This document shows, in pieces, positions 6,581 to 61,576 of a DNA stretch of 64,000 nt (positions within the stretch are counted from its first letter, which is position 1; every line of letters begins with the position of its first letter). The notes under the pieces are model-generated. The model saw only the letters and a program-made list of their open reading frames with translations, had not been told where the DNA came from and ran no database searches. The stretch covers positions 1 to 64,000 of the forward strand of contig JASAND010015681.1 in assembly GCA_030248195.1 (NCBI GenBank), written 5' to 3'. Source of the DNA: Trissonchulus latispiculum. Taxonomy: Eukaryota > Nematoda > Enoplea > Enoplida > Ironidae. The translations under genes and the position numbers were made by a program.

Positions 6581-6589
6581 TTGTGCCTC

Positions 6590-9500: not shown

Positions 9501-10730
9501 AAAGCAGCCTCAATCCAAACACCAGGTGTCAGCTTGCGCCTCAGGCAAGGCACAAAGCACCCATGTCAACGCGCACAGCCAGCTACTCTTACTATAGCAA
9601 CATCGATCTACATCCAGGCAGCCTCAATCTAAACTCAAGGTGTCAGCTTGCGCCTCAGTCCTGGCACAAAACACCCATGTCAACGCGCACATCCAGCCAC
9701 TCTTACTATGCAACAACACCCAGCTATGTCAAAGCAGCCTCAATCCAAACACCAGGTGTCAGCTTGCGCCTCAGTCCTGGCACAAAACACTCATGTCAAC
9801 GCGCACATCCAGCCACTCTTACTATGCAACAACACCCAGCTATGTCAAAGCAGCCTCAATCCAAACACCAGGTGTCAGCTTGCGCCTCAGGCAAGACACA
9901 AAACACCCATGTCAACGCGCACATCCAGCCACTCTTACTATGCAACAACACCCAGCTATGTCAAAGCAGCCTCAATCCAAACACCAGGTGTAAGCTTGCG
10001 CCTCAGGCAGGCCACAAAACACCCATGTCAACGCGCACAGCCAGCCACTCTTACTATGAAACAACACCTATCTACATCCAAGCAGCCTCAATCCAATCTC
10101 TGCACAGCCACCCAATTCTTACTATGCAGCAACACCGATCTACATGCAAGCATCCTCAATCCAATCTGAAGGTGCCCGCTTGTGCCTCAGCCTAGGCACC
10201 AAACACCCACGCCAACGCGCACAGCCACCCAAATCTTACTATGCAGCAACACCGATCTACATCCAAGCAGCCTTAATCCAAACAGCAGGTGTCAGCTTGC
10301 ACCTCAGTCCAGGCACAAAACACCCATTTTAACGCGCACAGCCAGCCAATTCTTACTATGCAACAACATCCAGCTATGTCAAAGCAGCCTCAATCTAAAC
10401 TCAAGGTGTCAGCTTGCGCCTCAGGCAAGGCACAAAACACCCATGTCAACGCGCACATACAGCCACTCTTACTATGCAACAACACCCAGCTACGTCAAAG
10501 CAGCCTCAATCTAAACTCAAGGTGTCAGCTTGCGCCTCAGGCAAGGCGCCAAACACCCACGCCAACGCGCACAGCCACCCAAATCTTACTATGCAGCAGC
10601 ACCGATCTACATCCAAGCAGCCTTAATCCAAACAGCAGGTGTCAGCTTGCACCTCAGCCTAGGCGCAAAACACCCACGTCAACGCGCACAGCCAGCCAGT
10701 CTTACTATGACTTACTCTTACCCAGCCTGA
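6590..10730 (+). repeat. ~117-bp tandem satellite array, about 35 monomers
   Basis: Tandem monomers mostly 116-117 bp long. For example, AGGTGTCAGC recurs at 7141, 7258, 7375, 7492 and 7608. Conserved words are TCAACGCGCACAGCCAGCCA, TTACTATGCAACAACACC and TCAGCTTGCGCCTCAG. Two monomer types alternate between 9131 and ~9700, giving a 230-bp higher-order unit (ACTATAGCAA at 9131, 9361 and 9591). Because 117 is a multiple of three and the monomer has few stops, long open frames appear in several phases. These have no start context, no splice signals and no domain, so they are treated as by-products of the repeat and not as genes. Confidence 0.9.
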
Positions 10731-42969: not shown

Positions 42970-43820
42970 ACTTATATAAAAAACTTATAAAAATAAAAAT
43001 TTTGAACTTTCTTGTAACTGTTTTCTTAGAGAGTCAACTTTTCGCTAATACAGACAGACATTTTGGTTAACTGACTTTTATACTTATATTTTTATATGCT
43101 TATATTTGTTTACTAATAGAAGTTACATGCAATTGCTTGAGTTCGGTTCTAGTTAGTTCTCATCAATCCGTATCTGTAAAGCAGATGTTTTCAACCACAG
43201 CAATCATACGGCACCAGGGCTGGGCCAAGACATTCGTAGGCAAAGTTTCAGCCTAGACCCTACGCGGCTGAACGGACACTGGATAGATTCGCACTCAAAA
43301 CGGAATCGAAGCAAATCGAATATGAAAATATGAAATTGAGTGTGATTGTACCATCTACAGCAATTCGGTTGATTTGTTGGTCCGTGTTGCGTCTGTGGAG
43401 AAAAAGACCAACTCTTACCATAAATTCAACTTTGCGCTGCGCTTGCGATAGTGTACGGAGTACGGACACTAAAATTTTCAGCATTAACGTTTAATGTTTT
43501 CTGAAACGGCCATTGGCGTACCATTGACCGCATTTCTGGGCCAATTGTCTTGGCCGCCCATTGGCCATTTGGCCATTTGGCCATTGGTCAAGCTGGAAAG
43601 TATAAGCCTGTAGCTGGAAAGGCCTGATCTTTTGAGTGTGTAAGAAAAGAGTCATCTATTGTGTTCTATGGAGTTCTCTCCAGGGGTCTTTTTCTTTTTT
43701 CTTTTTTTTTTTTAATTTTTGCCTCCGGAAATTTGGTATTAGAATTTTTTTTTAAATTTTTTTTTTTTTGTTTTTTTTTTTTTTGGCTTTGGTAGTAAAA
43801 AGGAATTCATGACATATATA
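42970..43820. other. Intergenic sequence with GGCCATT words and poly-T tracts
   Basis: No gene supported. A GGCCATTTGGCCATT patch is at ~43558-43588 and long T runs lie at 43683-43785, directly before the giant element. Confidence 0.4.
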
Positions 43821-45300
43821 TGTGAGGGCAAGGAATTTCGTAATGTTACCCACGGGATAAACTAAAACTGGAATTAGCTGTTTGAATCAAGTATTGGAGC
43901 TGAGATTGATTAATTGAATCGGCACAACTACACAACTATTGCTGGATTAGCTAGATCTGTCATGTCTGTTGTGAATCTTTTGTGAATTGCTGTGATTGTA
44001 CTAGCTAAGTTTGGTGGATGACAATTTTGGTATTTTTGTGACAATTTGGTCTTGATTCTTTGTACGATTATTTTTGGGTGAAACTATTTTAAGTCTCTGT
44101 TGCTAAATGGACCTTTGTCAAGAATTGTGCAGTGGACTGAAAAGTTTAGATAAGATGCTATTCCTAAGAAATGATGGATTATTTTGTTTGCTTAGTTTTA
44201 CCAAAATTTGGGATCTTATCACAGCAGGGTCCTGAGTGGGGTTAATACGTTCAAGTTTGGGAATTTTCGGAGCCCCACTCACCCCTTGAGCAAATATGCA
44301 CGTCACATCTAAATGACGTTTCTCTTTACACTCAAAAACTCGCACGTGACATCAAAGAACTACAGAGGAGGCCGAAAGGCCCGCCTCTCGCACGTCACAC
44401 ACGCTTGATTGACAGGTCTTCCCCAAAACCCCAAAAATTCTCCAAATTGAAAAACCAGTCGTGGTTGTGCTGGCGAGTCGAGAGGTACGCTATTTTTCTG
44501 CTCTTGTTGGACTTGTTGGATCTTGACCGAGGGCCCTACTAGGGAGAGACCGGTCTTCACTCGGAGATTTGTGTAGGTCAGTCAGGACCTGTCTGTTTTT
44601 AACCTTTATTGGCCAGCCACGACTCCCGTCTATTTTTACCGATTAACGCTATCTGTGACTATTCGACCTTTCCTATTTTCCATTTTCCCCCGCCGGAGGA
44701 CCTGTCATTGGAATTGCACGACGCAACTGGACAAGGGATAACCAAGGTAACAGGAATCTGTAAGTTGGTGGTAACTAACGGCCTAAAACGGAAAATTGTG
44801 AGACTTTCAACGAGACGTCAAAAACTGAGGGAATTTAACAAGAAGCTAGTTTAACTTTCATCTTGATCCACTACTATCGCTTGTATCTTTGATGTGTATT
44901 TACTGTGTAATCGTACCTTCTCTATGTGTCTACCTAGATATTTGTAACCTTGTATTGGTAAAATTGTAGATAACTATATTCATGTATAATTATAATTGTG
45001 ACCACTTAATTAAACTAATAATTTAATTTAACTATTGCGTGAATCGGCTTTACCTGCGCTTGAGCGAGAAAGAGAGTAGGAAAGTTCAATACTTAGATCG
45101 CTAGAAAATAGGAAATAACTGTGAACCGATTATCTGGATTTAATGCTAGTTAGTTTCATAGTATGACCCCTGTGTATGCCCTTGAATGACCAGGGAATAG
45201 CAAGTATAGAGCAAGAATTCGACGTGGATTTTCCTGGAGGTGTGTCTAATCTGTAGAGAAAAGAGAATAAAACGACCCCCAAATATCCCTTTTCTTTACA
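43821..45300 (+). repeat. 5' LTR of the 17.6-kb element
   Basis: 1,480 bp. AATAAA at 45266-45271 is followed by the LTR end 29 bases later, so R-U5 after the poly(A) signal is short. The first ~280 bp differ noticeably from the 3' LTR, including a ~50-bp block replaced by ~80 bp; the rest is nearly identical. Confidence 0.9.
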
Positions 45301-45302
45301 TG

Positions 45303-45320
45303 TGGAGCCCGCCTTTGGAG
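45303..45320 (+). promoter_or_regulatory. Primer-binding-site candidate
   Basis: TGGAGCCCGCCTTTGGAG starts two bases after the LTR, the usual PBS place, and begins TGG to pair with a tRNA CCA end. The complementary tRNA was not identified. Confidence 0.5.
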
Positions 45321-45530
45321 GAAAAAATATTGGAGTTTTTCAAACAGAATTTTTAGAAAGATCAATTCGCAACGTTCTTTAAGTTTGTTTTCTCTGAAAA
45401 ATTCTGGGCTCCTAATTTTTTCCAAAAGAACTCACCATTTTGACAGACATCAAGGTGTAACTGTGTGTAACGCATAAGTGTCATAATAATAATACATTGT
45501 CTTATAACCTAGTTGTTTAGTTAGGTAAGA

Positions 45531-45540
45531 TAATTTTACG
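45531..45540 (+). promoter_or_regulatory. Candidate major splice donor in the leader
   Basis: TTAG/GTAAGA is close to the consensus donor and lies ~17 bases before the gag ATG. It could feed spliced mRNAs for the downstream accessory ORFs, which follow acceptor-like sites at ~56555 and 57388. Confidence 0.45.
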
Positions 45541-45551
45541 TAATATACAGA

Positions 45552-48500
45552 ATGCCTGATCCTGCAGAAACGGGAGGGGGGACACCTCCCAACCCACCTG
45601 AACAGCCGGAATCTCCTCCGTCCACGCCGCCACCGGCTGGACCTGAAAACGTTGCTTTAACTGCCCTAACGAAAACTTTGACCGAATTTAATGCTGTAGT
45701 CAGAGCTCAAGGGGTAGCCACTGCTTTCAGTTCAGTGCCCATCCACCATGGTCACTCCTCGGAATCGTTTGAAGAGCACGTCGAAAAATACGAAAGGTTT
45801 TGTAGCGTAATGAATTTTGATGAATGGCAAAAGGTACACACTTTCTCAAGTTCCTTGAAAGGGCGTGCTCTCGAACTCTTCCGATCTGTGCCCAAGGATA
45901 GCAGGGGCAAATGGACTGAACTGATCGCAGAAGCTAAGAAGATTATGGTACCCCCGCATACCGCGCTTCACGCCTCGTCCCTAATGTTCCAGGTGAAACA
46001 AGAAAAGGGAGAACCTGTAGCTGATTATCTCATGCGTTTGAATAGGTACGCTCGCCTTAGTTTTAAGGAGGAGGACGGGTTCACCGACAAACAAGTTGAA
46101 CTGCTAAAATTGCGACTGTTTCTTTTCGGATTGAGAACCGATCTCAAAAACAGAGTGCCTCCGGGGTGTACTACGTTAGCTAAGGCTGTTGAGAGGGCTC
46201 AGTTGGCAGAAGGAGAGTACCCGGGGGAGGGATACCCTTCCTTCTTGGAACCTAATTTTCGAGCAGAGCAGGACGCTCCAGCAGCAATTGCCGAGGCAGA
46301 AAAAGCTGTTAGAGATTTGAAGATTCGTTTTGAAAAGTTTGAGGCTGAAAACTCCAAAAAAGCGTCCAGTGCTGGAAAGTCTGAACGTTCACGAGACCTG
46401 CCCCCCGGTACCACCTGTTTTAACTGTAATAAGCCCGGACATGTCCGACGTGAGTGCCGACAACCGGGAGGGGGAGCTTATCAGGCAAGAAACCAAAATT
46501 TTCAGTCTAACCGTGGGTCTTTTCGAAATTCTGAACGAAATCGAAATTATGACAATCGAAATGGACAGGGGCGTGACAATTACGATCGTGGTAGATACAA
46601 TGACAATAATGGAAATGGTAATAGGGACCGTTATGACAACAGGAATAATAGGAATTATGACGGTAGAGATAACAGAAATTATGAGCGTAGAGATGATAGG
46701 AATTATGATCCACAGTATAGGAATGAACGGTATCGACCTGACAACCGGCGAGACAATGGTCAACCGAACGACCGAAGGGATCAGCGGTCTGATCTCCCTT
46801 CGGAGATGAGACGTGAGTACGGGCCTAAATTCGCAGTCTCTCGATCTAGAGTTCAGGGAGACGGGTACTATCACGAAGACTCCGGTAGGGATCGACATTA
46901 CTCGGGGTCCTCTGCCTACTCGGGCAGTGATCGTTCGGAATATCACAGTCATAGGCAGTATTACAGTCGACAGCCTCGGTCTGACTCCGGGTCGGCTGGC
47001 CAATACTCTGCTCGCTCAGTACGGGCAGTTTCCCCCCAATGTGTGCGGCACGCGAAAAGGTGCCTTACTTCACCGCATTTTTCGCACCGAATTCTGATGT
47101 GTCGACAGCCCATGGTTTGCACCTGTCGACCAGAACGTTACGAGCCACCCTGCTTGCTGAGAGGCGCGCTCACTCCTAGTACTGTAACCTCAACTGATGA
47201 GGAGCTGTTCATTCCTATCTCTAACTCTGACGACGTAAGTCCGCGAAACTATGAAAGTTATCGCGAAACGAAAGTGGGTACTAAATCTCATACCGTTGCT
47301 GTTCAGTGTGAACTTTATTCAGATAAATTGTTGGAAATTCTCGAGAAGGAAACCGAAAAACCAAAGACTTTCGACTTTTCACTACTTTTAATACCATTTT
47401 GGTCTCTCTTTTCGGCCGTCCGTTCACTGAGAAAACTCGGTACGCCCATCTTTTGGCTTATGATGGGCCTACTACTGTCAACCGCTAGTGCTCAGTCGGC
47501 TACTGAAACAGGGTCGTCTCATTTTTTGGCAGACGAAATAGCTAAGATAGGTACGGTTGTGTTGCCTCGTTGGGGAGCTGTCTTGAGTCCCGCGGGTATA
47601 GGGGTGATATCTCAGAAAACTGAGTATTTGGCTTTGATTGTGCAGTTGGCGGTGCCCCCTATCTCGCCACAGTGGAAACCCCCTGAGTGGGCCAATGAGG
47701 AGGATTGTATCGATCTTAATACGGGTAAAGCTAAGACAGATCAGTATTGTGTGCGAATGATAAATCAGAGTTGTCCTCAGCATGATTTTTTGGAACAAGA
47801 AATTGATCAGATAAAAGCGGAATACCGAAAACTTTATTCGGGAGTTTTGAACACAAATTTCTATTCTAAATTACTAGCTAGTCTATGCCGATCTACCCCT
47901 GGAGTTTGTACTTCTTACCCGCCTATAGAGCCAGGTAGGCAGCGTCATAAACGTTTTATCGAATTTCTGTTAGCTGGCGCATTGGGAATAGGTGGTATAG
48001 CCAACAGCCTGTCAAACTCCTACCATCTGGGCAAGTTAGACGCTAAGGTAAATGCCGTGGAACAGGGATTTCATATTCTTCGGGATGAGCAGATCAAAAT
48101 TACAGATTCGGTTCGGAAAATCGTACACGCAAACGAGCAAGTTTATGCCTTTCTGCATCACACAGTTCAAGATCTGACCACGCTCATTATTCGTGCAAGA
48201 TGCTCTAACTTTTCGTACATGCGACAAATTTACATGCAACTATTAGCTCACATTTTCACTTCCTCTTTACGGGAAGGCTTAAATTCTGTGATGCATGCCG
48301 GGTTGCGTTCCGAAATTACTCCCGGACTCGTTAATTTGCAAACTCTGAAAGGAATAATCAAAACACATCCCTCCTTGCGCAATTCACTGCTAAGCCAGGA
48401 ACCTAGTCTCATCTATCAATTTGGCAAAGTCTATCCTATTAAGATTGATTTTAACTCGCTCCGATTTGGATTCATGCTCGAAATCCCTGTACCACTGGAA

Positions 48501-51500
48501 CAGGAGGTAAGACCACTGTACGCAGTGCACAACTTAGGTTACAACTCTAGGTTACACGGCATCACCACCCTGGCCCCTATGCCGGACTACGCCCAACGGT
48601 TGGACTCCGGTGAAGTCCGTGAGATCGACGTAACCGAATGTAAAACCGCACCTGGTCTTTGGTTTTGTCCCCCGAATGCTATCGTTACAAGCCTGAGAGC
48701 TAAGTGTCTACAAATCCTTATTTCATTCTCCGAAGATAGGGTAGAGAAAGAGTTTAGCACTTGTAAGGACTATGTCAAAGTGAAGGTCTTGGACAACTCC
48801 ACCGAATATCGTACCACGCCCGCGGGCGTGCTCATTCGGACCAACTATACCGAAGTCATTGTAGCTAGGTCGCCGTCTCTGAATCATGTGGCCGAAGGAG
48901 AGAGAGTGCCAGTGCCAGAAACGGGCACGCTCTGGTTCGAACACGGCCGTTATCTGCATCTTATCATAGGAAACACTATTCTTACTAGTACGTTAGGAAT
49001 CGCTAGGACTACTGTCACCTTAGCCGATCTCAAGGAAACAGTCGTGCCTGCCCCTTTAGGTAGGATACCATTACATTTCACTGAGCTATCTACCGCTGAA
49101 TACGAGAATGAACAGGCTCGGAACCTCATACAGGACCAAATGAAGGAATATGTACACCTGCCTTTTGTACCCTTGCAACTTAACCATGGGCTGTTTATGG
49201 TAATAATTGTCGTGATTATTGGATGTGTCATAGTGTTCTGGGTTACGCCATGTGGTCGCAAATTCAGAAACCGAATTCGAGGTAAGTGCCACCGTAAACC
49301 TGACACTAACGCCGCAGCACCAGTGATTTCCGCGCCCTCAAACGGCCGTCGATTAACGGAACGACTTTTTAGTGACGATGAAGAAGAAGCCCCTATAGAA
49401 TTGGGTTCCTTAGCTGTAAATGATGAACGGATCCCCTTGCGACCCGTCAGTAGATCTCTAGACTACGATAAGTTACGTAAGGCTGCTAATAGATGTCAGG
49501 CCACTTCTAAAGCTATCTCTAGGGACACGTCCTACGCTTCTTCCATGTCCGATTATAATGTTAAGGACAGTGACGCTTCCGCCAACCTTTTATCAGATGA
49601 GAGAATTGACTGCGCCTCCCCTACTATAGATATGAGTCTAGATAAGAAACATAGGAATGAGCGACATATAGTCCGGTTCTCATGCCAGCGGCCACTTGAG
49701 AAACAAGACTCGGGAGATGAGACCACTGACTCATCGCTAGTTTCTTACTCCGACGCGGCTACCAGTCCTTTGAAACGCCGAGTCTCTCATTCCACTGCTA
49801 ACACTGGGAATTCTCAGGTTCAAACACGTTCCCTCGTGGGGAACCCTAATAGAACTATCAACGCACACTCTGTACTTATGGTTCGAACTGTACCTTTGCT
49901 TATGACGTTATTGATCCTAGGACAAACTGTAGATGCTTTGTTTGACACAGGATCGCTTGTCTCAGTCATGACTACTGGGCTGGTGCGACAACTCAAACTA
50001 GACGTGCTTCCGGTAGAAATACCACAATATTTGCAAACTGCTAACGGCGGGAAGTGTGAAATTGTAGGGACCATAACTGTGCCTGTTCTATTTCATAGGA
50101 ATCGGGAATCCCTACCGATTCACGATTGGACCTTTGTAGTGGTAAATAACCTTACGGTCGACTGCATTATAGGATCTGACTTTATGACTAGCTTTCCTGG
50201 GGAAATCTCACTCGATCTGGGACAGCACACTATTACTTGGCCTACGCTGAACGGGAAAAACGTCACGATTCCTCTGAAATTACCCGTGACCTCTAGGAAT
50301 CGCGAGATACATCTAATTGGTACCCTACCCTCTCAGACTAGGAACCACGGGGAATATCGGGCTAATACCCCAGTATTACACCGACCGCTGCCCATGATCT
50401 TTGTGAACCTAAACGGACGCCCCATACAGACCTTAGTTGACACTGGAGCAAATCTGAGTTTGATGAGTGAAAACTTGGCTAACTTTCTGAAATTAGCCAT
50501 TAAACCGCTAGTACACCCGCCTCGCGCCGAAGGCATAAACGGTCAAACCTTGAAATTTAGGGGTATTGTCAAATTACCTGTTGAATTCTATGACTCTCCC
50601 GGGATTAAAATTGAACATTCTTTTCTGGTTCCCAAGGGGTTAGCCGAGGACTGCCTTTTAGGGACTGACTTCTTGCATGAGCATGGCGGGGACCTCAACC
50701 TTAGCTTTCACAAGGGAGAACTGAGTTTACTAAAAGCCGGTAAACCCCCCATGGTAGCTAAGATAATACAACAATCCCCGGTTACAGAAACCGCTTATAG
50801 GGTATCTGCTATGAAGCAGGTCATTATTCCCCCTTATGCTGAGGTAGCCGTACCTGCGCTAGTAGAAAGTGTAGAGTCTCTTAAGTATGACGGATTATTT
50901 GAACCGGACGTAACTAAGTTTGAGGGTAATACCGGTGCAGTTCAGGCCTTTCCTGCCATGGTAGATTTGAGATCACGCTGCGTACCGGTACTCATGCGAA
51001 ACGGGACTGGGCAACCAGTAACGGTTTACGAGAACTCTACTTTAGGTAATGTAACGCCCCGTAATAGGGTTGGGCATCGGGAACCACAAGTCAAATATGA
51101 GGAGGTCATCAACGAATACGGGGAAGTTGTGAAGTTGGACAATCGGTTTAAATCTAATCCTAAAACGAGTCGGGAGGGACACCACTTTCGAATAAATTCT
51201 TTGAAGAATGTTGAGTCATGTTCCGTGAAAGACCTGCCCGAAGCTATGCAGGCAATTTCGTTTGATGAGGACTCTTTGAATGAAACTGAAAAAGGACAAT
51301 TTCTGGGGCTTCTCCGCCAAAACAAGCACTGTTTCTCGCAACACTCTTTTGACATAGGGAAATGTACCATTTTTAAGGCTCACATCAACACCGGGGACGC
51401 TAAACCTATTTATGCTACACCCTATCGTCTACCTGTACATTTGCGACAGCCTCTGTTAGAGGAGCTGACTGAGATGTTGAAATACGGTCTAATCCGTCCG

Positions 51501-54500
51501 TCTTCTAGTCCATGGAGTTCCCCCATGATTTACGTACCTAAGCCAGGCGGGAAGTTGCGACTATGCGTTGATTTTAGACGAGTAAATAAAATTAGCGATC
51601 CCGATATTTACCCGATTCCTCGCATCGATGATATTATGACCTCTCTCAAGGGTTCAAAGTACTTCTCTACGATAGATCTAAGTAAGGGATTTAATCAAAT
51701 TGAGTTGGATGAAGATTCTAAAGCAAAAGCCAGTTTCAATACTTTTCATGGGCAATTTGAATACAATGTTTTGCCGTTCGGGCTAAAATGTGCACCAGGA
51801 AATTTTCAAAGATGCATGGAGCGAATTTTGGGAGATTTGCAATGGAAAAAGTGTATTATTTACATTGATGACATTCTGATTTTCTCCAAAACCTTCTCTG
51901 AACATCTCGAAATTATGCAAGAGGTTTTTGACCGACTGCGGGCTGCTGATTTGAAAATGAATCCGGGAAAATGTCATTTTCTTAAAAAATCTGTTACTTA
52001 CCTGGGACACATCATTTCTGAACAGGGAGTTGAACCCTTGAAGGAGAGAATTCAGGCAATACATGATTTAGCGGTACCTAAGACGCTTAAAGACGTTGAG
52101 AGTTTTCTAGGAATGTGTGCGTATTACGCTAAGTTTATCAAGGGATTCGCCCATCTAGCTTCCCCCTTGTATTCTCTCAAGAAAAAAGGAGTACGGTTTG
52201 TGTGGAATAATACACACCAGCAATCTTTCGAATTGCTCAAAAGGAGTCTTGTTGAGGCCCCTGTACTGGCCCACCCCGATCTAGCTAAGGGATTTGTCTT
52301 ACATACTGATGCATCTGATCTGGGTTTGGGAGCGGTTCTATCGCAAGAGCAGGACGACGGAAAGTACCACCCCGTCGCTTACGCGGCCAGGTCTCTAAAA
52401 AAGTATGAACGGAATTACTCCACCCACGATAAAGAATGTTTAGCCATGAAATTTGGTATCGAGCACTTTAGACATTATTTGTACGGTGGACCGCCTTTCA
52501 CTCTTTTTACCGATCATTCAGCTCTGCGTTGGTTAATGAAACACCCCCCACGAAATTCACGATTAGCTAGGTGGCAAATGACCTTCTCTGAGTATGACTT
52601 TGAGATTAAGCATAGGAACAATCCTCAGTTAAGGAATGCTGATGGACTATCTAGGAACCCCTTGTTTGCGGACGTAGCAAAGGGATTACCTGGAGAGGAA
52701 CAGAACGGTGAGCGACAGTCAGTACGATTTCACCAGGAAGATAGCGATGATTTAGTAGCTCATATTAACTCTGTGGTTGTCAAAGGGGAAGGAAGGGAAA
52801 GTCGTGCTTTTCAACTACCCAAGATTTCAAAGGCTCAGGCAAAAAAGAGTGTTACTACTGTGCGCTCCAAAGTTTCGCGTATTTCTCAGCAGTCAGAATC
52901 TGAAAATTCAGAAGAAAGTCAACCGTCCCCTCAAAAACAACCTAAAATTCGTTCTCAGGTGGGTGACGTTTCGGATAGCGAACACATTAGCAAACCAACG
53001 CTTGCCAGTTTGAGGAAGAAGCGTGACATCTGCCCCTCCTCCACTTCTGAGGAAGAACCGGTAAGGGAAGAGTTTCGCTCCGAAACAGGACGACCAAAAC
53101 GAAAGGAGCATGCGCATCTGGTTTTTAGTCAAATGTTCGATGTTGCAGTACGCGATAAGTCTAACGTTACTCTTAATCCAAAGTCCTGGAAAAAGCTGCA
53201 GCAGTTGCAAGCCGAAGATCTTTTATTGGGCGAAATTATTGAGTATAAAGTTAACAAGAATTTACCTAGTAACTTTAATCGCGCTGTCCGCATCGCCGCG
53301 CTCTCCGAACACTGCGATATGAGGGATGGGGTTTTGGTGCATCTTGAACGGTTTAGGGACACCGTGCTAGAGGTATTAGCCGTACCCGAAAGTTTGCGCT
53401 CCGAAGCTCTCGCTGCTTGTCATGATAGCCCCTATGCTGCACACGGCGGTTGCAATAAAACTTCGTTTCGACTATCTGAACACTTTTGGTGGCCAGGCAT
53501 GCACGCTGATGCAAAACAGTGGGTTAAATCTTGTCCTCGGTGTCAAAAAAGGAAGGGACCCCCAAAAAACCCCAAGGCTCTATTAAGACACGCTCCACTT
53601 CCCGTAGAACCTTTTGAACGGGTCCATTGCGATTTAATGGATATCTCGAAAGCGTCTAAAAGCGGCATGAAGCATATACTCAGTTTCATTGATGCGTTTT
53701 CTAAATACGTGATTGCCGTGCCTATCAAGAACAAGCGCGCGTATACAATCGCTCAAACTTTCCTTGAGTTTATTGTCCTGCAATATGGATCACCAAAGGA
53801 ACTAGTCTCCGATCAAGGCAAGGAATTTGTGGCAGCGCTTAATAAAGAAATTTGCGCTCTCGTGCAAACTCGAAAGTTAGAAACTACGCGCTATCATCCC
53901 GCCGCTAACGGTCAGGTCGAGCGCTGGCATCGCACGCTGTTAGACATGTTAAGCACTGTTACCGAAAACCATCTAGAATGGGATAACATGGTACCATTCT
54001 GTCAGTTTGCTTATAACACTTCAGTGAACGCCACCACAGGTGAAACACCGCATTATCTTCTGCATGCATGGGACCCTGTATTGCCTAGTGCCACGAATGT
54101 AGCTATACCCACTGATCGTAAATATGCCGGATTTGATTATGTTAATAATGCCACGGAAGCTCTGCAACTAGCCTGGTCACTCGCCCGCGAAAAGACGGGA
54201 GCGGCTCAGGAAACGCAAGATCGTAATTATAACCGTAATGCCGTAGAACCCACCTTCCGTGTAGGGGATCTGGTTATGATTAAGGCCTCTAATGTAGCTA
54301 AGAAAGATCAGGTGTATAAGTTGTTAGACAAGCGTGTGGGACCTTACCGTATTGACAAGATTTTCGGTTGTGTTGCCGAGGTGTATCCTGCTGGCAACCG
54401 ACGCGCCAAACGAATTAAGGTACAGTTTAACAATATGGTACCGTGCGTTGAGCCACGCGTCATTACTGCACCTGTCCACCAACACGAAGGGGATTCCACT

Positions 54501-55373
54501 GACACGTCCGATCATTCTGAATGTGAAATTTCTAAACTACCCGACTCAGGACAGTCTGTCCCGAAGAAAGACTCCCCAATCGATCACCCTGTGCAACCCC
54601 AAAAGAGAGAAAATAAACATTTACAGATAGAAAAGGAGAAACCCAAGCCAACTGCTCCTGCACGATCAAAAACGCCTATTGACCTAGAAAACGCTAAACC
54701 ACCCAAACCGGAACCCGCTCGAAGGAGATCTTCTGCCAGACTGGCAGAGAAACACCGTACTCCGGAACCACCACCGGAACCTAAAGTGGAGCGCCCACCA
54801 CTATCGCCGAAACAACAGAAAAGTTTACCTCCGTTGCACATTAAATACCCAGACTCCGAATCGGAATCTGACAGCGCACTCGTTTTCTTAGGAGATGAGC
54901 CTCTTTCACAGGAAGCTGATCCAGAGTTATACCAACGACGAAACTTCTTTAATCCCATCGACGGAGAGTGGCAAAAACGCATTGCACGGACTTATGGTCT
55001 TAAGATCAGACACGAGTTACCCGGAATGCTGCGTCATATGCCACTGTATGAACCCTATGAAGTAATAGACGTATTAGGAGATGGGAATTGTTATTATAGG
55101 GCTTTATCTTTAGCTATTACCGGTTTGGAAGATTCCTGGAGGGATATTAAACGGGGACTTCTTGAATTTTTGGAATCTAACGAACACAAGCGGCGTTTTC
55201 AAGCCCTGTACCCAAAAATCAATGAGGTGAAGGAGAGATTAACCAAGGCTGCCAAATTTGCCACTGATGATGAGATCTTTCTAACTGCCGCTTGGTTAAA
55301 AACTACCATTATGTCTTACTCTAAATACGGTAAACTTTGGGCTTGGCAACTCTTCCCCCCACTGCCCTTTTAG
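45552..55373 (+). CDS. Gag-Env-PR-PR-RT-RNaseH-IN-OTU polyprotein, 3,273 codons
   Basis: Domains in order. The retrotransposon Gag capsid spans ~40-225, with a CX2CX4HX4C zinc knuckle at C289-C302 and an Arg/Asn/Asp/Tyr-rich tail. Env-like region: signal-anchor-like segment ~622-647, several Cys and N-glycosylation sequons, a furin-type RQRHKR site ending at R801 followed by a hydrophobic Gly/Ala-rich fusion-peptide-like stretch and a heptad region, and a transmembrane segment ~1214-1233. Two retropepsins: DTG at 1465-1467 with IIGSDF, and DTG at 1630-1632 with LLGTDF. RT spans ~1950-2150 with YIDD at 2104-2107; RNase H has its TDAS at 2252-2255. Integrase has zinc ligands H2624, H2631, C2661 and C2664 and catalytic D2694, D2754 and E2790 (D-D-35-E). 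A Pro/Lys/Glu-rich linker leads to an OTU domain with DGNC at 3177-3180. The stop falls inside the OTU domain. The ATG at 45552 was chosen because it opens just after the leader and before the Gag domain. Env between Gag and Pol is abnormal for this group. Confidence 0.92.
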   Translation: MPDPAETGGGTPPNPPEQPESPPSTPPPAGPENVALTALTKTLTEFNAVVRAQGVATAFSSVPIHHGHSSESFEEHVEKYERFCSVMNFDEWQKVHTFSSSLKGRALELFRSVPKDSRGKWTELIAEAKKIMVPPHTALHASSLMFQVKQEKGEPVADYLMRLNRYARLSFKEEDGFTDKQVELLKLRLFLFGLRTDLKNRVPPGCTTLAKAVERAQLAEGEYPGEGYPSFLEPNFRAEQDAPAAIAEAEKAVRDLKIRFEKFEAENSKKASSAGKSERSRDLPPGTTCFNCNKPGHVRRECRQPGGGAYQARNQNFQSNRGSFRNSERNRNYDNRNGQGRDNYDRGRYNDNNGNGNRDRYDNRNNRNYDGRDNRNYERRDDRNYDPQYRNERYRPDNRRDNGQPNDRRDQRSDLPSEMRREYGPKFAVSRSRVQGDGYYHEDSGRDRHYSGSSAYSGSDRSEYHSHRQYYSRQPRSDSGSAGQYSARSVRAVSPQCVRHAKRCLTSPHFSHRILMCRQPMVCTCRPERYEPPCLLRGALTPSTVTSTDEELFIPISNSDDVSPRNYESYRETKVGTKSHTVAVQCELYSDKLLEILEKETEKPKTFDFSLLLIPFWSLFSAVRSLRKLGTPIFWLMMGLLLSTASAQSATETGSSHFLADEIAKIGTVVLPRWGAVLSPAGIGVISQKTEYLALIVQLAVPPISPQWKPPEWANEEDCIDLNTGKAKTDQYCVRMINQSCPQHDFLEQEIDQIKAEYRKLYSGVLNTNFYSKLLASLCRSTPGVCTSYPPIEPGRQRHKRFIEFLLAGALGIGGIANSLSNSYHLGKLDAKVNAVEQGFHILRDEQIKITDSVRKIVHANEQVYAFLHHTVQDLTTLIIRARCSNFSYMRQIYMQLLAHIFTSSLREGLNSVMHAGLRSEITPGLVNLQTLKGIIKTHPSLRNSLLSQEPSLIYQFGKVYPIKIDFNSLRFGFMLEIPVPLEQEVRPLYAVHNLGYNSRLHGITTLAPMPDYAQRLDSGEVREIDVTECKTAPGLWFCPPNAIVTSLRAKCLQILISFSEDRVEKEFSTCKDYVKVKVLDNSTEYRTTPAGVLIRTNYTEVIVARSPSLNHVAEGERVPVPETGTLWFEHGRYLHLIIGNTILTSTLGIARTTVTLADLKETVVPAPLGRIPLHFTELSTAEYENEQARNLIQDQMKEYVHLPFVPLQLNHGLFMVIIVVIIGCVIVFWVTPCGRKFRNRIRGKCHRKPDTNAAAPVISAPSNGRRLTERLFSDDEEEAPIELGSLAVNDERIPLRPVSRSLDYDKLRKAANRCQATSKAISRDTSYASSMSDYNVKDSDASANLLSDERIDCASPTIDMSLDKKHRNERHIVRFSCQRPLEKQDSGDETTDSSLVSYSDAATSPLKRRVSHSTANTGNSQVQTRSLVGNPNRTINAHSVLMVRTVPLLMTLLILGQTVDALFDTGSLVSVMTTGLVRQLKLDVLPVEIPQYLQTANGGKCEIVGTITVPVLFHRNRESLPIHDWTFVVVNNLTVDCIIGSDFMTSFPGEISLDLGQHTITWPTLNGKNVTIPLKLPVTSRNREIHLIGTLPSQTRNHGEYRANTPVLHRPLPMIFVNLNGRPIQTLVDTGANLSLMSENLANFLKLAIKPLVHPPRAEGINGQTLKFRGIVKLPVEFYDSPGIKIEHSFLVPKGLAEDCLLGTDFLHEHGGDLNLSFHKGELSLLKAGKPPMVAKIIQQSPVTETAYRVSAMKQVIIPPYAEVAVPALVESVESLKYDGLFEPDVTKFEGNTGAVQAFPAMVDLRSRCVPVLMRNGTGQPVTVYENSTLGNVTPRNRVGHREPQVKYEEVINEYGEVVKLDNRFKSNPKTSREGHHFRINSLKNVESCSVKDLPEAMQAISFDEDSLNETEKGQFLGLLRQNKHCFSQHSFDIGKCTIFKAHINTGDAKPIYATPYRLPVHLRQPLLEELTEMLKYGLIRPSSSPWSSPMIYVPKPGGKLRLCVDFRRVNKISDPDIYPIPRIDDIMTSLKGSKYFSTIDLSKGFNQIELDEDSKAKASFNTFHGQFEYNVLPFGLKCAPGNFQRCMERILGDLQWKKCIIYIDDILIFSKTFSEHLEIMQEVFDRLRAADLKMNPGKCHFLKKSVTYLGHIISEQGVEPLKERIQAIHDLAVPKTLKDVESFLGMCAYYAKFIKGFAHLASPLYSLKKKGVRFVWNNTHQQSFELLKRSLVEAPVLAHPDLAKGFVLHTDASDLGLGAVLSQEQDDGKYHPVAYAARSLKKYERNYSTHDKECLAMKFGIEHFRHYLYGGPPFTLFTDHSALRWLMKHPPRNSRLARWQMTFSEYDFEIKHRNNPQLRNADGLSRNPLFADVAKGLPGEEQNGERQSVRFHQEDSDDLVAHINSVVVKGEGRESRAFQLPKISKAQAKKSVTTVRSKVSRISQQSESENSEESQPSPQKQPKIRSQVGDVSDSEHISKPTLASLRKKRDICPSSTSEEEPVREEFRSETGRPKRKEHAHLVFSQMFDVAVRDKSNVTLNPKSWKKLQQLQAEDLLLGEIIEYKVNKNLPSNFNRAVRIAALSEHCDMRDGVLVHLERFRDTVLEVLAVPESLRSEALAACHDSPYAAHGGCNKTSFRLSEHFWWPGMHADAKQWVKSCPRCQKRKGPPKNPKALLRHAPLPVEPFERVHCDLMDISKASKSGMKHILSFIDAFSKYVIAVPIKNKRAYTIAQTFLEFIVLQYGSPKELVSDQGKEFVAALNKEICALVQTRKLETTRYHPAANGQVERWHRTLLDMLSTVTENHLEWDNMVPFCQFAYNTSVNATTGETPHYLLHAWDPVLPSATNVAIPTDRKYAGFDYVNNATEALQLAWSLAREKTGAAQETQDRNYNRNAVEPTFRVGDLVMIKASNVAKKDQVYKLLDKRVGPYRIDKIFGCVAEVYPAGNRRAKRIKVQFNNMVPCVEPRVITAPVHQHEGDSTDTSDHSECEISKLPDSGQSVPKKDSPIDHPVQPQKRENKHLQIEKEKPKPTAPARSKTPIDLENAKPPKPEPARRRSSARLAEKHRTPEPPPEPKVERPPLSPKQQKSLPPLHIKYPDSESESDSALVFLGDEPLSQEADPELYQRRNFFNPIDGEWQKRIARTYGLKIRHELPGMLRHMPLYEPYEVIDVLGDGNCYYRALSLAITGLEDSWRDIKRGLLEFLESNEHKRRFQALYPKINEVKERLTKAAKFATDDEIFLTAAWLKTTIMSYSKYGKLWAWQLFPPLPF

Positions 55374-55720
55374 GAAAACAGGTCAAAATGGAACAAAATT
55401 CCCTTTACATCTACAACATTAACAGTGATCACTTCATGGTAGTGTTATCCGTTCGCGAGCCTCCCCATGGGAGTTGGCCCACCGGCAAGGCACCAAAATT
55501 AAGTGTACTCGAACTAGTTACGAGCTCCTCTAACTCTTCTTCGCCTACTGAAGCTACGGCTAAGCAAAACGCTTTAAAAGCTCAACCCGATTTTGAACGA
55601 ATGTTTTCCGAAAGTCCACTTTTCTCAGGGCCTAACGCCATTTTTAGAAATCCGTTTCGAAGATTTCAACGTTCTAACGAATCTTCGGACGAGCGACACT
55701 CAGGTCCGTCTGAGAGGTAG
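55374..55720 (+). pseudogene. OTU-domain C-terminus in the -1 frame (continuation of the polyprotein)
   Basis: This frame is open from ~55337 and overlaps the end of the big frame. It carries the sequence expected after the N-terminal OTU half: a YIYNINSDHF segment with the likely catalytic His (codon 55430-55432), then VVLSV. A ~85-residue Ser/Pro-rich tail follows to the stop at 55718-55720. The two frames meet around CTTCCCCCCA (C6 at 55355-55360), so either -1 ribosomal slippage or a one-base contraction of the C run separates them. OTU proteases are cysteine proteases that remove ubiquitin-type modifiers; the role here (deubiquitination of host or viral proteins) is inference. Confidence 0.75.
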
Positions 55721-56574
55721 TCTTGGACGCTAAACAATACTGTGATCTGTACTATAGTTTCTGTAATATAGCTATTCCAGTGATTTGGTTTGTACAGATA
55801 AGATAACTTGTACCATGTTATGTGCACTGTATGTAGTAACTTTGTATGGTGCTTCGCACCCTAAACTGACATGCGGGTAAGGAGTTGACCGTTAAACTTT
55901 GACGACTAATTGCTATTACGCATTCTTTACCTTTTCATTACTCTACTCAGTCAATCCATCCTTACTGATGTAGACTTAAAATTATCCGGTCGTCGGTCAA
56001 CCCTTCTGGGCCATGATGCCCACTAGAGGCTCCGGTTGCAGCTTCCGGGATTCACAGCTTCTGAACAAGTGCTGCACTGAAAATCCAAGGTTTACAACCT
56101 TAACAAAAACATGTTACAAAATGTTAGTTAAAAAATAACCAAAAATAAGTCGGCAGTCAAAAGAAGCTGTCACAAACTTGTTGTTTGAACTTTTTGTTTA
56201 TTTTGTATAGTTGTCCAACTGTAAATAAGATTTCTATTTGACAAAAGCATAAAATCCTACTATAAAAAGTAATATAAAGTTCAGAAAATCCAAAAATATC
56301 TGAAAACCTTTCTTAAAACATTCTTTTATTATTGTTATTGTGTATTGTCTGTTAGCTAAGTAATCTAACCGAATAGTGACCGATACCTTTGTCGAATGTT
56401 AGTATTACCTAGATAAACCAACGGAGATTAGAATGTTGATAGAGATGTACACAAACGAGACGTAACTGTTATGCATGGAGAGATATAACCCGCCTGGATT
56501 AGGGCCAAGTGATTTTTAGTCATAACTATGCGAATATGACCGATTTTGACTTCAGGTTTCGTGTCTAACCAGCC
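55721..56574 (+). other. Spacer before accessory ORF A with acceptor-like site
   Basis: AT-rich, no ORF of note. TTTTGACTTCAG ending at 56555 and CTAACCAG ending at 56572 are candidate 3' splice sites just before the ORF A start. Confidence 0.5.
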
Positions 56575-57237
56575 ATGGCTCCTAGAGCCCCCACCCGTTG
56601 CGCTCCTGCGCTTGATCGCGATCCCGCAGATGATACGCCGCCTGCGCCACTTACCTTGTACTGTCCGCTTGAGATGCGAGGTCCGTTTCGAGACTATGAT
56701 TGTTTGCCTGAAGGTTTAAAGATGCTGCGCGGAACTGTTGATATTTTTACTGATCCAGAAAAATATGATATGTTTGAGTCAAATAAACGAATACATTTGA
56801 CTAGCCCACAGGTTGCGCAAGTTGCTACACTAATATGTGCGGTATGTTTCTGGAGATTTGGTTTGAGTTACTACGGAGTGCCAGTAACTATTTATCCAGT
56901 AAGTGATGAAGTTCGTAAGTCCCGTTTACCTGCAAAACAATACTGTCGTTCGTCCGTGTCGTCGTATGGTGGTGGTATGTGTCGTTGTCCCAATATTAAT
57001 TGTCAAGCTGTAAGTGTGATTTTGTTGCAGCAACTGAGTGGTTGGCCCCTTGGCCTGGAATTTAGGGCACTGTCTAATAATACCGTGCGCGCGCTGCGCG
57101 AGGTCGTTGTCCAACTGTCCGAATACTTACCGTCTGATCTTTATGATTTTCGCATGCGTGTGGTGGGGGATAGCACAGATTATTACCCTAATATTTTAAG
57201 TTTTCCAGGAGTGCAGTGTGCCTATCGCCTCATTTAA
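56575..57237 (+). CDS. Accessory ORF A, 220 aa, Cys-rich, unknown function
   Basis: Starts at an ATG in good context (CAGCCATGG). A Pro/Asp-rich N-terminus precedes a conserved core with C88-x2-C91 in LICAVCFWRFGLSYYGVPV and CxCPNxxC at 136-143, then LPSDL near 185. The four cysteines C88, C91, C138 and C143 are also present in ORF B, suggesting a zinc-binding fold. I find no known family. It is likely translated from a spliced subgenomic mRNA and would be an accessory or regulatory protein of the element (inference). There is no signal peptide. Confidence 0.7.
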   Translation: MAPRAPTRCAPALDRDPADDTPPAPLTLYCPLEMRGPFRDYDCLPEGLKMLRGTVDIFTDPEKYDMFESNKRIHLTSPQVAQVATLICAVCFWRFGLSYYGVPVTIYPVSDEVRKSRLPAKQYCRSSVSSYGGGMCRCPNINCQAVSVILLQQLSGWPLGLEFRALSNNTVRALREVVVQLSEYLPSDLYDFRMRVVGDSTDYYPNILSFPGVQCAYRLI

Positions 57238-57392
57238 GTTCAGTTTGATCGGCAATTCTTTAGTTTACTATAGGAAAGAGTTCAGTTTAGTTCTAACCTT
57301 TAGTTTTGTCCTGTCCCTTTGCATTGTCATCTTTTGTGCTGCCTATGCTTGCAATTCGAGTTACTTCATAGTGGTATGTATATTTCAGAACC

Positions 57393-58142
57393 ATGTCTCA
57401 GAACCAGCTCAGCAACTATTTTTACATCTGGATGGACCAGTACGACAACCAGTCGGAGTTCAGCGACGTCTCCTCTGACGTCATCGAGATCGACCCTGAC
57501 AACGATGATGCCATGTCCACAGATTCTGCCATCTGTGTGACCTCTCCGTCCCTTCCCCCGCAGCCTGTTCAGCCCGTGGTTCGCATCTGGCAAAGCCACT
57601 ACAGTCCGCCGACCACCGCAGCGGAGACCATGGACGCCCCCTCCAGAGGACCGGAGCGGGAGCGAGTGACCCTGCCCCCTGAGCTGCGCCAATCCCACTA
57701 CGATGACTGGGTCTATACGTCCCCTGCCCACACTGAAGTCTACATCCCCCGGCGGCCCATCTCCATCCTGGGGCCGGAGGTAATTCCGATGAGCACGGTT
57801 CTTTGTTTAATGTGTTTTTGGAAATTTAAGTTGTCTTTTTACTGTGTGCCTTTTCAGTTCCTCCCCGCTCCCCTCACCCTTCAGTTTGAGAAGTTTCCCG
57901 CTAAGGCCCGCTTGCGAGAAGCTGTGCATGCGCTTCTCCCCCCTCTCCCCTCTGTTTTTCGTTGTCCCAACCGTTTGTGTGGTGATAAATGTGTTTTGGT
58001 TCTGTATGAGCACCCAAGTTGGGGCGCTTCCGGTCGCATGCCTTTTGACCGTCAGTTGCCTCCACTCATTTCTTTTCTGTTGAATGCCCTGCAACGCGCG
58101 CACCCACTCATGCCTGCTAACCTGTCTTCTCATCAGTTTTAA
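57393..58142 (+). CDS. Accessory ORF B, 249 aa, diverged duplicate of ORF A
   Basis: Starts four bases after TATATTTCAG, a good splice acceptor (57379-57388). The N-terminal ~120 residues are acidic and Pro/Ser-rich, unlike ORF A. The core aligns with ORF A: C138-x2-C141 in VLCLMCFWKFKLSFYCVPF, then FPAKA, CPNRLC at 191-196 and LMPANL near the end. A GT...AG segment of exactly 78 nt (57780-57857, T-rich) could be removed in frame and would delete the C-x2-C part. Since that part is conserved with ORF A it is probably coding. Function unknown; with ORF A it forms a tandem gene pair. Confidence 0.7.
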   Translation: MSQNQLSNYFYIWMDQYDNQSEFSDVSSDVIEIDPDNDDAMSTDSAICVTSPSLPPQPVQPVVRIWQSHYSPPTTAAETMDAPSRGPERERVTLPPELRQSHYDDWVYTSPAHTEVYIPRRPISILGPEVIPMSTVLCLMCFWKFKLSFYCVPFQFLPAPLTLQFEKFPAKARLREAVHALLPPLPSVFRCPNRLCGDKCVLVLYEHPSWGASGRMPFDRQLPPLISFLLNALQRAHPLMPANLSSHQF

Positions 58143-59938
58143 GTGCCTGTTGAACAATAGCTGACCACAGATCTCTAAAAAACGTGAAAAATAGCGAAGT
58201 TTTGAAGAAAATACACAGATTTGCATGATCAGTTTTTGAGAGTGTTTTACGATCGACGGAGATCACGGAAATCTCGTAGACGGCAGGTGAGAAGATTATA
58301 CAAATGAAGTTTTGGCTCTGTTCAGCTACTGTTCTGTCTGTGTCTGTTTTGCTGATTCATGTTTCAGTTGCACGTTTTGCCTGGTCTGACAGCCTGGATA
58401 GAGGTCCCACTTCCCCGCTGATACGGTTAGTTTACACCGGACCTGAGATTCCCTGTTCCCCCCGTGAGTTTGCTGTCACACCACGCATACACCACTGCAC
58501 CATACGCGACACTGATCTGTATTCTGCTAAGCGACATTGCTCACTGTTTTCTGTTTGCTGTTTACTGTTACTGAACTGTTTCTGATTAGCTGCACGAATT
58601 GAATTAAAACTGCGAATTCTGACTGATGAATGAAAACACGCGCCATTAAGAGTGATAAGAACGTTCCGTCGTTGAGATCTAAAAAGATAATAATTGAGCA
58701 ACAAGCATAAAAATCTGTGTTGTAGCTGTTTTCTGTCCGTGCGTGTCTGTACATATTTCAGCTGTTTCTCTGTCCTTTTTTCGGCTGTCAGGAGTGACTG
58801 TATCTGGACCATGCGATGCGGAGCCTCAGACTGTTCCGGATATTGAGTTTTACTGTTTTTCTGTTTACTAATTTTTGTCCTCTGTGTCTGTTTGTTGCAC
58901 CTAGAATCTGAAGTAGTTTAGCCTAACGAATGTTAACGTGCAGATGAGTTTTTGATGCATCGTTGAACCTAACCGCCAGTGAGCGCTAGTCTTGAGGAAG
59001 GCAAGCTGCTGAAACGTAACCTTACAGAAATTTGACTGAGGTTTCTTGATTTGAAAGAGATACTTGAATACTCAATGGGTTAGAGAAAGAGAAACTGAGT
59101 ACCTTGATTGATTGATTAATTGAACCGCAGAATGATCAGTTACTTATTACCCCATAAACTGTTTCTATACGATAACTCATTCCGTACATGGTTCTAATTC
59201 TAGGCTGTTTGCTCAGCAATGGTTTTTCTGTTTTTGGTCCGATGGTCGTCAGTTGGTCCGTGGTTCGATCCCTTTTTCTGAATCGGAAGTTCGCAGTTCG
59301 ATTCAGCACTATCATCAGTCACCAACGCTTGGACGCTTTTCTTCACATCTTTCAATCCTGACTCAACCGCTCACCCGCCAGAACCGTCTACAGAATACAT
59401 CCCTGTGGCGCCCCACGTCGGCATCCGCCGATTTCCCTGGCCGAAGGCACGCCTCACGCCTCGGTGAACACCCCTACCCCGCCAGTACCGTCTTCTCAGT
59501 CCAACGCCCGGCGTGAATCTCCCACGCCCGGCGCCTCCCACTGGAATCACTGTCCTCAGGGTGGCAAGCTTGCACCCACTTCCTCCTTGGCCGATGAGAA
59601 CTATGACCGGCCACTGCTTCTACTACCAGAACTACAGCCAGGAGCTCTGGCCGTTGCAGGTGTTCCTCCGGTCATCTCCCTGCACCACCACAGCTACTGA
59701 TTGCCACTACTACCTCACTGTCACCACGACCGACAAAATGATCAATATTAGACTGGAATCTATGAACTTTGCATTTGTATGTATTATCATTATCTGTACA
59801 GTTGAGTTGTCTAGGTTGGAGTTTTATTGTCATCTTAATTACCATTATGTAAACGACTTATCGATGCTGTGTTTACTTGCTTGTTTTACTACACTTCCCC
59901 CCCTAGTAAACGCCTACCACATTTTTTGCGGTGGAGAG
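58143..59938 (+). other. 3' internal region with possible small spliced ORFs
   Basis: A splice donor CAG/GTGAGA lies at 58286/58287 and acceptor-like TGTTTCAG and CATATTTCAG sites near 58369 and 58761. A 93-codon frame at 58304-58585 starts with a signal-peptide-like MKFWLCSATVLSVSVLLIHV, but may be intronic. A frame running to the LTR (59513-59983) contains two hydrophobic stretches (FAFVCIIIICTV, MLCLLACFTTLPPLV). None is confidently a gene. Confidence 0.35.
59925..59938 (+). promoter_or_regulatory. Polypurine-like tract of the 17.6-kb element
   Basis: GCGGTGGAGAG immediately precedes the 3' LTR; it is interrupted by one T, so only a weak match. Confidence 0.4.
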
Positions 59939-61446
59939 TGTGGAGGCAAGGAATTTCGTAATGTTACCCACGGGATAAACTAAAACTGGAATTAGCTGTT
60001 TGAATCAAGTATTGGAGCTGAGATTGATTTTAATTGGTATTGGAGCTGGCTTTGATTTTAATTTTATCTGTTGAATCTGTACTACTGTTTCTGTATTAGC
60101 TGGATCTGTCATGTCTGTTGTGAATCTTTTGTGAATTGCTGTGTTTGTATTAGCTAAGTTGGTGGATGACAATTTTGGTTTTTTGGTGACGATTTGGTCT
60201 TGATTCCTTGTACGATTGTTTTTGGGTGAAACTATTTTGGGTCTTTGTTGCTAAATGGATCTTTGTTAAGAATTGTGCAGTGGACCGAAAAGTTTAGATA
60301 AGATGCTATTCCTAAGAAATGATGGATTATTTTGTTTGCTGAGTTTTACCAAAATTTGGGATCTTATCACAGCAGGGTCCTGAGTGGGGTTAATACGTTC
60401 AAGTTTGGGAATTTTCGGAGCCCCACTCACCCCTTGAGCAAATATGCACGTCACATCTAAATGACGTTTCTCTTTACACTCAAAAACTCGCACGTGACAT
60501 CAAAGAACTACAGAGGAGGCCGAAAGGCCCGCCTCTCGCACGTCACACACGCTTGATTGACAGGTCTTCCCCAAAACCCCAAAAATTCTCCAAATTGAAA
60601 AACCAGTCGTGGTTGTGCTGGCGAGTCGAGAGGTACGCTATTTTTCTGCTCTTGTTGGACTTGTTGGATCTTGACCGAGGGCCCTACTAGGGAGAGACCG
60701 GTCTTCACTCGGAGATTTGTGTAGGTCAGTCAGGACCTGTCTGTTTTTAACCTTTATTGGCCAGCCACGACTCCCGTCTATTTTTACCGATTAACGCTAT
60801 CTGTGACTATTCGACCTTTCCTATTTTCCATTTCCCCCGCCGGAGGACCTGTCCTTGGAATTGCACGACGCAACTGGACAAGGGATAACCAAGGTAACAG
60901 GAATCTGTAAGTTGGTGGTAACTAACGGTCTAAAAACGGAGAATTGTGAGACTTTAAATGAGACGTCAAAAACTGAGGGAATTTAACAAGAAGCTAGTTT
61001 AACTTTCATCTTGATCCACTACCATCGCTTGTATCTTTGATGTGTATTTACTGTGTAATTGTACCTTCTCTGTGTGTCTACCTAGATATTTGTAACCTTG
61101 TATTGGTAAAATTGTAGATAACTATATTCATGTATAATTATAATTGTGACCACTTAATTAAACTAATAATTTAATTTAATTATTGCGTGAATCGGCTTTA
61201 CCTGCGCTTGAGCGAGAAAGAGAGTAGGCAGATCGATACTTAGATCGCCAGAAAATAGGAAATAACTGTGAACCGATTATCTGGATTTAATGCTAGTTAG
61301 TCTCATAGTATGACCCCTGTGTATGCCCTTGAATGACCAGGGAATAGTAAGTGTAGAACAAGTATTCGACGTAGATTTTCCTGGATGTGTGTCTAATCTG
61401 TAGAGAAAAGAGAATAAAACGACCCCCAAATAGCCTTTTCTTTACA
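59939..61446 (+). repeat. 3' LTR of the 17.6-kb element
   Basis: 1,508 bp, TGTG...TTTACA, followed by TATA (the TSD). Matches 43821-45300. Confidence 0.9.
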
Positions 61447-61576
61447 TATATTAACGTCCGTATTAACCAGTTGAAGTTTTGTTTTATGAGTAAACATTTA
61501 ATATTGTACATATAGTCCTATTCACTATGGCGTCATTTTAGTACAGTACAGTTATGACAAATCTTGACTTTCTCTT

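Follow-up and report, generated by a model that had tools for sequence, protein, structure and literature searches.

A Ty3/gypsy-type element of the nematode Trissonchulus latispiculum carries a likely F-like envelope segment between Gag and Pol in one open reading frame

Where can a retroelement keep its envelope gene, and how can the gene be expressed from there? In retroviruses and errantiviruses, env comes last and is made from a spliced RNA. A different arrangement is found in the stretch of DNA analysed here, a window of 64,000 nucleotides from the nematode Trissonchulus latispiculum (contig JASAND010015681.1, positions 1 to 64,000). Positions 43821-61446 of the window constitute a complete long terminal repeat (LTR) element, in which an earlier note had placed Gag, an Env-like segment and protease-reverse transcriptase-RNase H-integrase in one frame of 3,273 codons. 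We consider it fairly probable that the segment is a class I, F-like envelope glycoprotein inside a selected, single-frame Gag-Env-Pol of a Ty3/gypsy-type element, which would be translated as a membrane-crossing polyprotein.

The list of open reading frames (ORFs) and a Pfam scan agree with that arrangement. A single frame at 45552..55373, on the forward strand like all features given below, opens with an ATG and runs for 3,273 codons, while over 45552-55373 the remaining five frames stay open for 208 amino acids (aa) at the longest. Its order is Gag, Env, two proteases (PR), reverse transcriptase (RT), RNase H, integrase and an OTU-like stretch. Gag had been described as carrying a capsid and a zinc knuckle, and both are found, the capsid region as Retrotrans_gag at 45840..46067 (expectation value E 3.6e-7, above the cut-off) and the CCHC knuckle at 46413..46463 (E 1.4e-5). 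Past Env, two aspartyl protease domains at 49914..50183 (Asp_protease_2) and 50388..50696 (RVP, E 2.1e-9), whose DTG motifs lie around residues 1465 and 1630, are followed by RT at 51534..52016 (RVT_1, E 2.4e-39), RNase H at 52203..52595 (RT_RNaseH, E 1.7e-38; RT_RNaseH_2, E 4.1e-38) and an integrase with H2C2 and core (rve) matches at 53382..53873 (E 2.6e-22 and 3.4e-11). As regards Ty3-gypsy membership, PR-RT-RNase H-integrase after a CCHC Gag is present, with env standing between Gag and PR. In the scan of the window frame, no Pfam family matched the stretch from Gag to protease.

That stretch has the features of a class I, F-type protein, namely a basic, furin-like cleavage site, RQRHKR (residues 796-801, 47937..47954), an immediately following putative fusion peptide that is hydrophobic and rich in Gly and Ala (47955..48020), and a conserved C-terminal transmembrane segment (TM; residues 1213-1231, 49188..49244) with a mean hydropathy of 3.15. 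All three had already been picked out in the earlier note. R-x-x-R and eight cysteines are invariant across ten aligned envs, and in 18 of the 20 copies that were fetched first the hydrophobic stretch starts right behind the cleavage site. The predicted ectodomain spans 47496..49187, and its class I, F-like assignment draws on likeness to an outside relative called P0018, on sister copies and on a profile search of PDB. Upstream of it, a signal-anchor-like hydrophobic segment at 47448..47495 was recognised from the aligned hydrophobic segments of relatives, and the Env tail continues into a poorly conserved linker (49245..49871). Sequons, also noted before, are there (four, at residues 738, 886, 1082 and 1098), in a number that is unremarkable against 0 in the Gag piece, 6 in the RT-RNase H piece and 5 in the integrase piece. 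The heptad region noted with them has weak support in the window, its score being attained in 6 of 300 shuffles, and none in P0018, for which the number is 101 of 300. By codon usage, the Env stretch suits the frame it is read in to about the same degree as the end of Gag.

Is this order a property of one copy or of a family? The host genome (734 Mb in 21,732 contigs) was searched with RT and with env, in both cases as best-first samples. Among the best 150 of 12,472 RT candidates, which were scored, 83 have a short match of Ty3/gypsy size, and for 22 of these 83 the surrounding frame is 3,000 codons or longer. The best 72 of 1,140 env candidates, the window's own included, are 84-100% identical; 64 have no internal stop, and 34 are part of an open frame that is 3,000 codons or longer. 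We then fetched 47 pieces that each end in a Ty3/gypsy-type RT, 45 of them about 5.5 kb long and two shorter at contig ends; the first 20 were chosen with a preference for long open frames, and the next 27 were picked for upstream room. Of the first 20 pieces, 18 carry a window-related env in frame with protease and RT, at 84-30% identity to the window's env. Over all 47, an env stands upstream of RT in the RT frame in 35 (30 whole, 5 partial). It is the F-like env in 27 (23 whole, 4 partial) and a second, unrelated env in eight (7 whole, 1 partial). Three of the 35 (L025, L027 and L043) have one or two stops between the env start and RT.

Half of the 12 pieces that lack an in-frame env have one in another frame (L021, L026, L028, L031, L037 and L045). 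Another, L029, has an inverted RT piece upstream and no env, and is rearranged or nested; L041 is too short to judge; and in L024, L044, L046 and L047, whose RT is 42-52% identical, no env was found in the upstream piece. Within the window's RT clade, from which 32 pieces were fetched, the order is kept widely, as env is present in 30 of the 31 judgeable pieces (27 share the RT frame, 3 do not), and in a second RT clade env is present in 11 of 11 pieces. Four or more groups can be told apart among the aligned F-like envs, whose identity to the window is 84%, 37-38%, 37% and 33-34%. A Gag domain (E 3e-8 to 1.4e-7), in an open frame and in register with env, is also present further upstream in one copy from each of three divergent groups.

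The same kind of frame was met outside this genome. P0018 is a 1,705-aa 'pol polyprotein, partial' on a 7.5 kb contig of a Nitrospirales metagenome-assembled genome, probably a eukaryotic contaminant there. The part available carries env, protease, RT and RNase H in one frame. Its RT-RNase H is 70% identical to that of the window, and its first 700 residues are 30% identical to the window env over 663 aa (E 4e-106), with a local score of 889, the highest among 100 shuffles being 57. Among the 120 RT relatives listed, P0018 alone combines a strong TM (hydropathy >2.2) and a signal-anchor-like segment upstream of RT; eight others have borderline hydrophobic stretches there. P0018 was reached by the RT search alone. 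Homologue searches with env alone, which were word-limited, gave no relative among the 7999 and 7998 candidates scored, and scans of viral and genome collections, phage records and PHROGs gave no env homologue.

Selection on env was examined by the ratio of nonsynonymous to synonymous rates (dN/dS). In 12 pairs within groups, with dS of 0.08-0.43, env dN/dS is 0.000-0.025, similar to RT; the pairs overlap and were chosen by us, and the statistics ignore copy relatedness and gene conversion. When the window is compared with four copies from the 84%-env groups, dS is saturated. In the same four comparisons, identity is 95-96% for RT, 85-86% for env, 56-58% for the first protease, 46-49% for the linker and 37-49% for the Gag end. 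Env is therefore better conserved than protease. At the level of sequence, these comparisons establish the gag-env-pol order, the single frame, its conservation and purifying selection on env across groups of copies. That env could be a one-off insertion, an assembly artefact or a decayed passenger might have been thought from the window, which holds a single copy. The order is repeated in many contigs, in several groups and in a foreign assembly, and dN/dS is very low, so that a one-off insertion is refuted and this whole class of explanation is left with next to no probability.

What does the F-like env resemble? With a profile of nine envs, class I fusion glycoprotein F takes all of the ten best places in PDB (E 0.002-0.07), under the names fusion glycoprotein F, F0 or prefusion F, two of the chains being labelled human metapneumovirus. 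These matches are collinear over F2, the cleavage site, the fusion peptide and the first heptad region. The next entries, at ranks 11-13, are hemagglutinin-esterase chains at E 0.8-1.0. The F match thus appears marginal but specific, and the fusion-glycoprotein likeness raised in the earlier note stands as a likeness by sequence, with marginal E values. The single window env or a two-sequence alignment, used as query, matched nothing convincing.

The second env occupies the same slot in another RT clade, whose RT is 46-49% identical to the window's. In eight pieces (L019, L020, L022, L023, L025, L034, L042 and L043) it is a glycoprotein some 600 aa long, preceded by a part with a CCHC motif and followed by the protease. 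Its Pfam matches are Monjiviricetes_fusion (E 6e-6 and 1.7e-5, below the family cut-off), BDV_G and herpes gB, which we take to be class III fusogens or their kin, and they weakly suggest a class III-like protein. Its best PDB match, a ribosomal protein at E 5e-4, is unrelated and was taken as chance. Compared with the first env, it shows no similarity (hhalign probability 0.2%). Its dN/dS of 0.013-0.042 was computable in five of six pairs, four of them with saturated dS. A CCHC motif lies upstream in frame in seven of the eight pieces (all except L022), and no Pfam Gag match was obtained in the L020 and L042 pieces.

The relation of the two env clades was read from a FastTree phylogeny of 149 RT pieces, each some 166 aa long, built on this short alignment and rooted at the midpoint. 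Each env clade, decayed copies included, is monophyletic with a support of 0.998. The two are not sisters, and their common node covers 134 of the 149 pieces. The chances seem about even that the gag-pol slot is a recurrent home for env, in which a membrane-crossing Gag-Env-Pol arose twice or moved between lineages as a working alternative to spliced env.

How, then, would such an Env be made? Most likely it is made inside a membrane-crossing Gag-Env-Pol polyprotein. Full-length, unspliced RNA would be translated into Gag-Env-Pol, the internal signal anchor would enter the membrane of the endoplasmic reticulum during translation, and the Env TM would stop translocation. Gag and Pol would then be cytosolic and the glycosylated Env lumenal, with lumenal cuts by signal peptidase and a furin-like enzyme and cytosolic cuts by the element's own protease. 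In this way, Gag, Env and Pol could be delivered jointly to one membrane for budding and cell-to-cell spread. Flavivirus-type polyproteins, by analogy, have a similar membrane-crossing topology. In the window, the charges beside both membrane segments agree with a lumenal Env.

Several observations weigh against an F-like Env made in this way. The signal anchor that the earlier note had seen (~residues 633-648) is short in the window and stays below the hydropathy threshold of 1.6; what stands of it is a hydrophobic character in the aligned relatives, with values of 1.8 in several of them. In the four other copies tested, the TM is followed by negative charges (in this flanking-charge test, the segment positions for L006 and L011 were off). 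The best PDB match has an E of only 0.002, neither the window env nor the P0018 env has a Pfam match even at E 10, and the Pfam matches for L001 and L005 are to unrelated families at chance level. AlphaFold2 models of env from two sequences have a predicted local distance difference test score (pLDDT) of only 32 and 39. Finally, a near-perfect donor-like site follows the Env TM in the window and in one other group.

The marginal F match and the scores of these models would also suit a glycoprotein with another membrane role, such as a receptor, an assembly scaffold or a Gag membrane anchor, instead of a fusogen. We find such a role rather unlikely in view of the Gly-rich hydrophobic stretch that starts right after the cleavage site, the conserved cysteines, the TM, the collinearity of the F match, and the viral-glycoprotein-like env in the same slot of the other RT clade. 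Env is likely a class I, F-like fusion glycoprotein, judged from these sequence features.

The donor-like sites bear on expression. With the same gene order, pol or env could be an in-frame intron, and Gag-Env and Gag-Pol would come from separate mRNAs. The best donor-like site among the 1042 GTs of the element (score 11.7) is 38 bases past the Env TM, and a further strong one is 27 bases before the gag ATG. In L009 and L017, the best donor (11.5) is between the Env TM and the protease, 313 bases past the TM start. There is a precedent, as the genomic RNA of Cer1, which has no gag-pol stop, is spliced for cerv according to the part of the source consulted (PMC10309623). These scores use generic weights, which may not be the host's, and synonymous shuffles yield 0.29 equally strong donors per ORF by chance (summed over pieces), so that a single one is unremarkable. 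Moreover, a donor scoring above 8.0 occurs in the 650 bases past the TM start in only 2 of 19 other copies, again L009 and L017; their donor is not at the window's place, and L005, L010, L014 and L018 reach 5.1 at most. Because of the L009 and L017 donors, we raised our estimate for splicing slightly, to a possibility that we still doubt, and lowered that for the membrane-crossing polyprotein by a little. Translation of Gag-Env-Pol as a whole remains our preferred reading.

The element has both LTRs. The 5′ LTR, of TG...CA form and aligned to the 3′ LTR, is at 43821..45300, and the 3′ LTR, located by comparison of the pair, is at 59939..61446. The target duplication TATA borders the element at 43817-43820 and 61447-61450. 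TG...CA LTRs and a short duplication are thus present, as regards Metaviridae or Ty3-gypsy membership. A putative primer-binding site, TGGAGCCCGCC, lies directly past the 5′ LTR (45303..45313), and a putative polypurine tract, GCGGTGGAGAG, is at 59928..59938, both read from the sequence. The LTRs are about 1.5 kb long, with 50 mismatches in 1477 aligned columns and 7 gap openings. The mismatches are clustered, leaving a run of about 513 bases that is mismatch-free with one gap. None of 20000 uniform simulations reaches such a length, and the clustering suggests that the LTR pair is recombinant. Because of this clustering, no LTR age is estimated.

At its 3′ end, the frame measures 3,279 codons from stop to stop in the window copy and about 3,395 in several sister copies. 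Since the sister frames are about 116 codons longer, we read the very end of the window's frame as broken, not spliced, intact copies existing elsewhere; a candidate intron where the ORF ends, with the stop codon within an acceptor-like stretch, was dropped for the same reason. The OTU-like stretch at 55077..55328 has a Pfam OTU match at E 0.027, below the cut-off, and at E 0.044 in a sister copy with a longer-running frame, and the label is unconfirmed. The tandem aspartyl proteases (49914-50696) occur in the window's group, while one matched stretch is found in the P0018, L001 and L020 pieces.

Two accessory ORFs of 220 aa (56575..57237) and 249 aa (57393..58142) sit 3′ of pol, the usual place of env. 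Neither matches a Pfam family, and they are paralogous to each other (29% identity over 126 aa, E 8e-19). At 58304-58585, not far from the 3′ LTR, an ORF of 93 aa whose N-terminus is hydrophobic has no Pfam family either. Elsewhere in the window are a 180-base inverted repeat, 93% complementary, at 41914-42424, possibly a small DNA transposon; an apparently decayed C-terminal integrase piece of another retroelement at 21472-21927; and a long tandem array with a 117-base unit at 6581-10709.

A selected Gag-Env-Pol order with two unrelated glycoproteins would change where retroelement env genes are sought. If the polyprotein model is true, retroelements can express an envelope much as flaviviruses express their structural proteins, and the balance of Gag, Env and Pol without a separate env message becomes testable.

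Among known systems, errantiviruses such as Drosophila gypsy have a Ty3/gypsy-type pol and a class I Env, with env 3′ of pol and expressed from a spliced mRNA. Unlike theirs, the Env here (47448-49244) is upstream of RT (51534). The gag-pro-pol-env order of Retroviridae is not seen either. The earlier note knew of no described element with the gag-env-pol order, and our search agrees: in the open-licence literature, as far as its text was covered and with subscription papers and Repbase outside the scope, env between gag and pol was not found. The same holds for the parts consulted of work on glycoprotein captures (PMC10084718), plant extra ORFs (PMC7264820) and Troyka (PMC12440569), in which no env was found in the gag-pol slot.

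The following comparisons likewise rest on parts of the cited papers. Like the element here, Anakin is an LTR element that captured a viral glycoprotein, in its case from a chuvirus; unlike it, Anakin is BEL/Pao, and its glycoprotein was not seen placed between gag and pol (PMC7642597). Cer1 of C. elegans is similar as a Ty3/gypsy element that has no gag-pol stop and makes a further product, and differs in that CERV is a nuclear product of a spliced mRNA, with no env placed between gag and pol in that account (PMC10309623). TelKA of bdelloid rotifers is an LTR element with a paramyxovirus-F-like class I Env that has a cleavage site and a fusion peptide, as is likely here, but its env is ORF3, downstream of pol; its Env matched pfam00523 by HHpred, whereas here the less sensitive hmmscan gave no Pfam match (PMC5408684). 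A further parallel is found in Atlas virus and other hookworm belpaoviruses, LTR elements with Gag, Pol and Env in a single, intron-free frame for a Gag-Pol-Env polyprotein of 2,828 residues (PMC9094657). There, Env is C-terminal, past Pol, its GC part is class II and phlebovirus-like, and RT is of the BEL/Pao type. An Env within a single-frame polyprotein is therefore not new in itself, Atlas virus being an example (PMC9094657).
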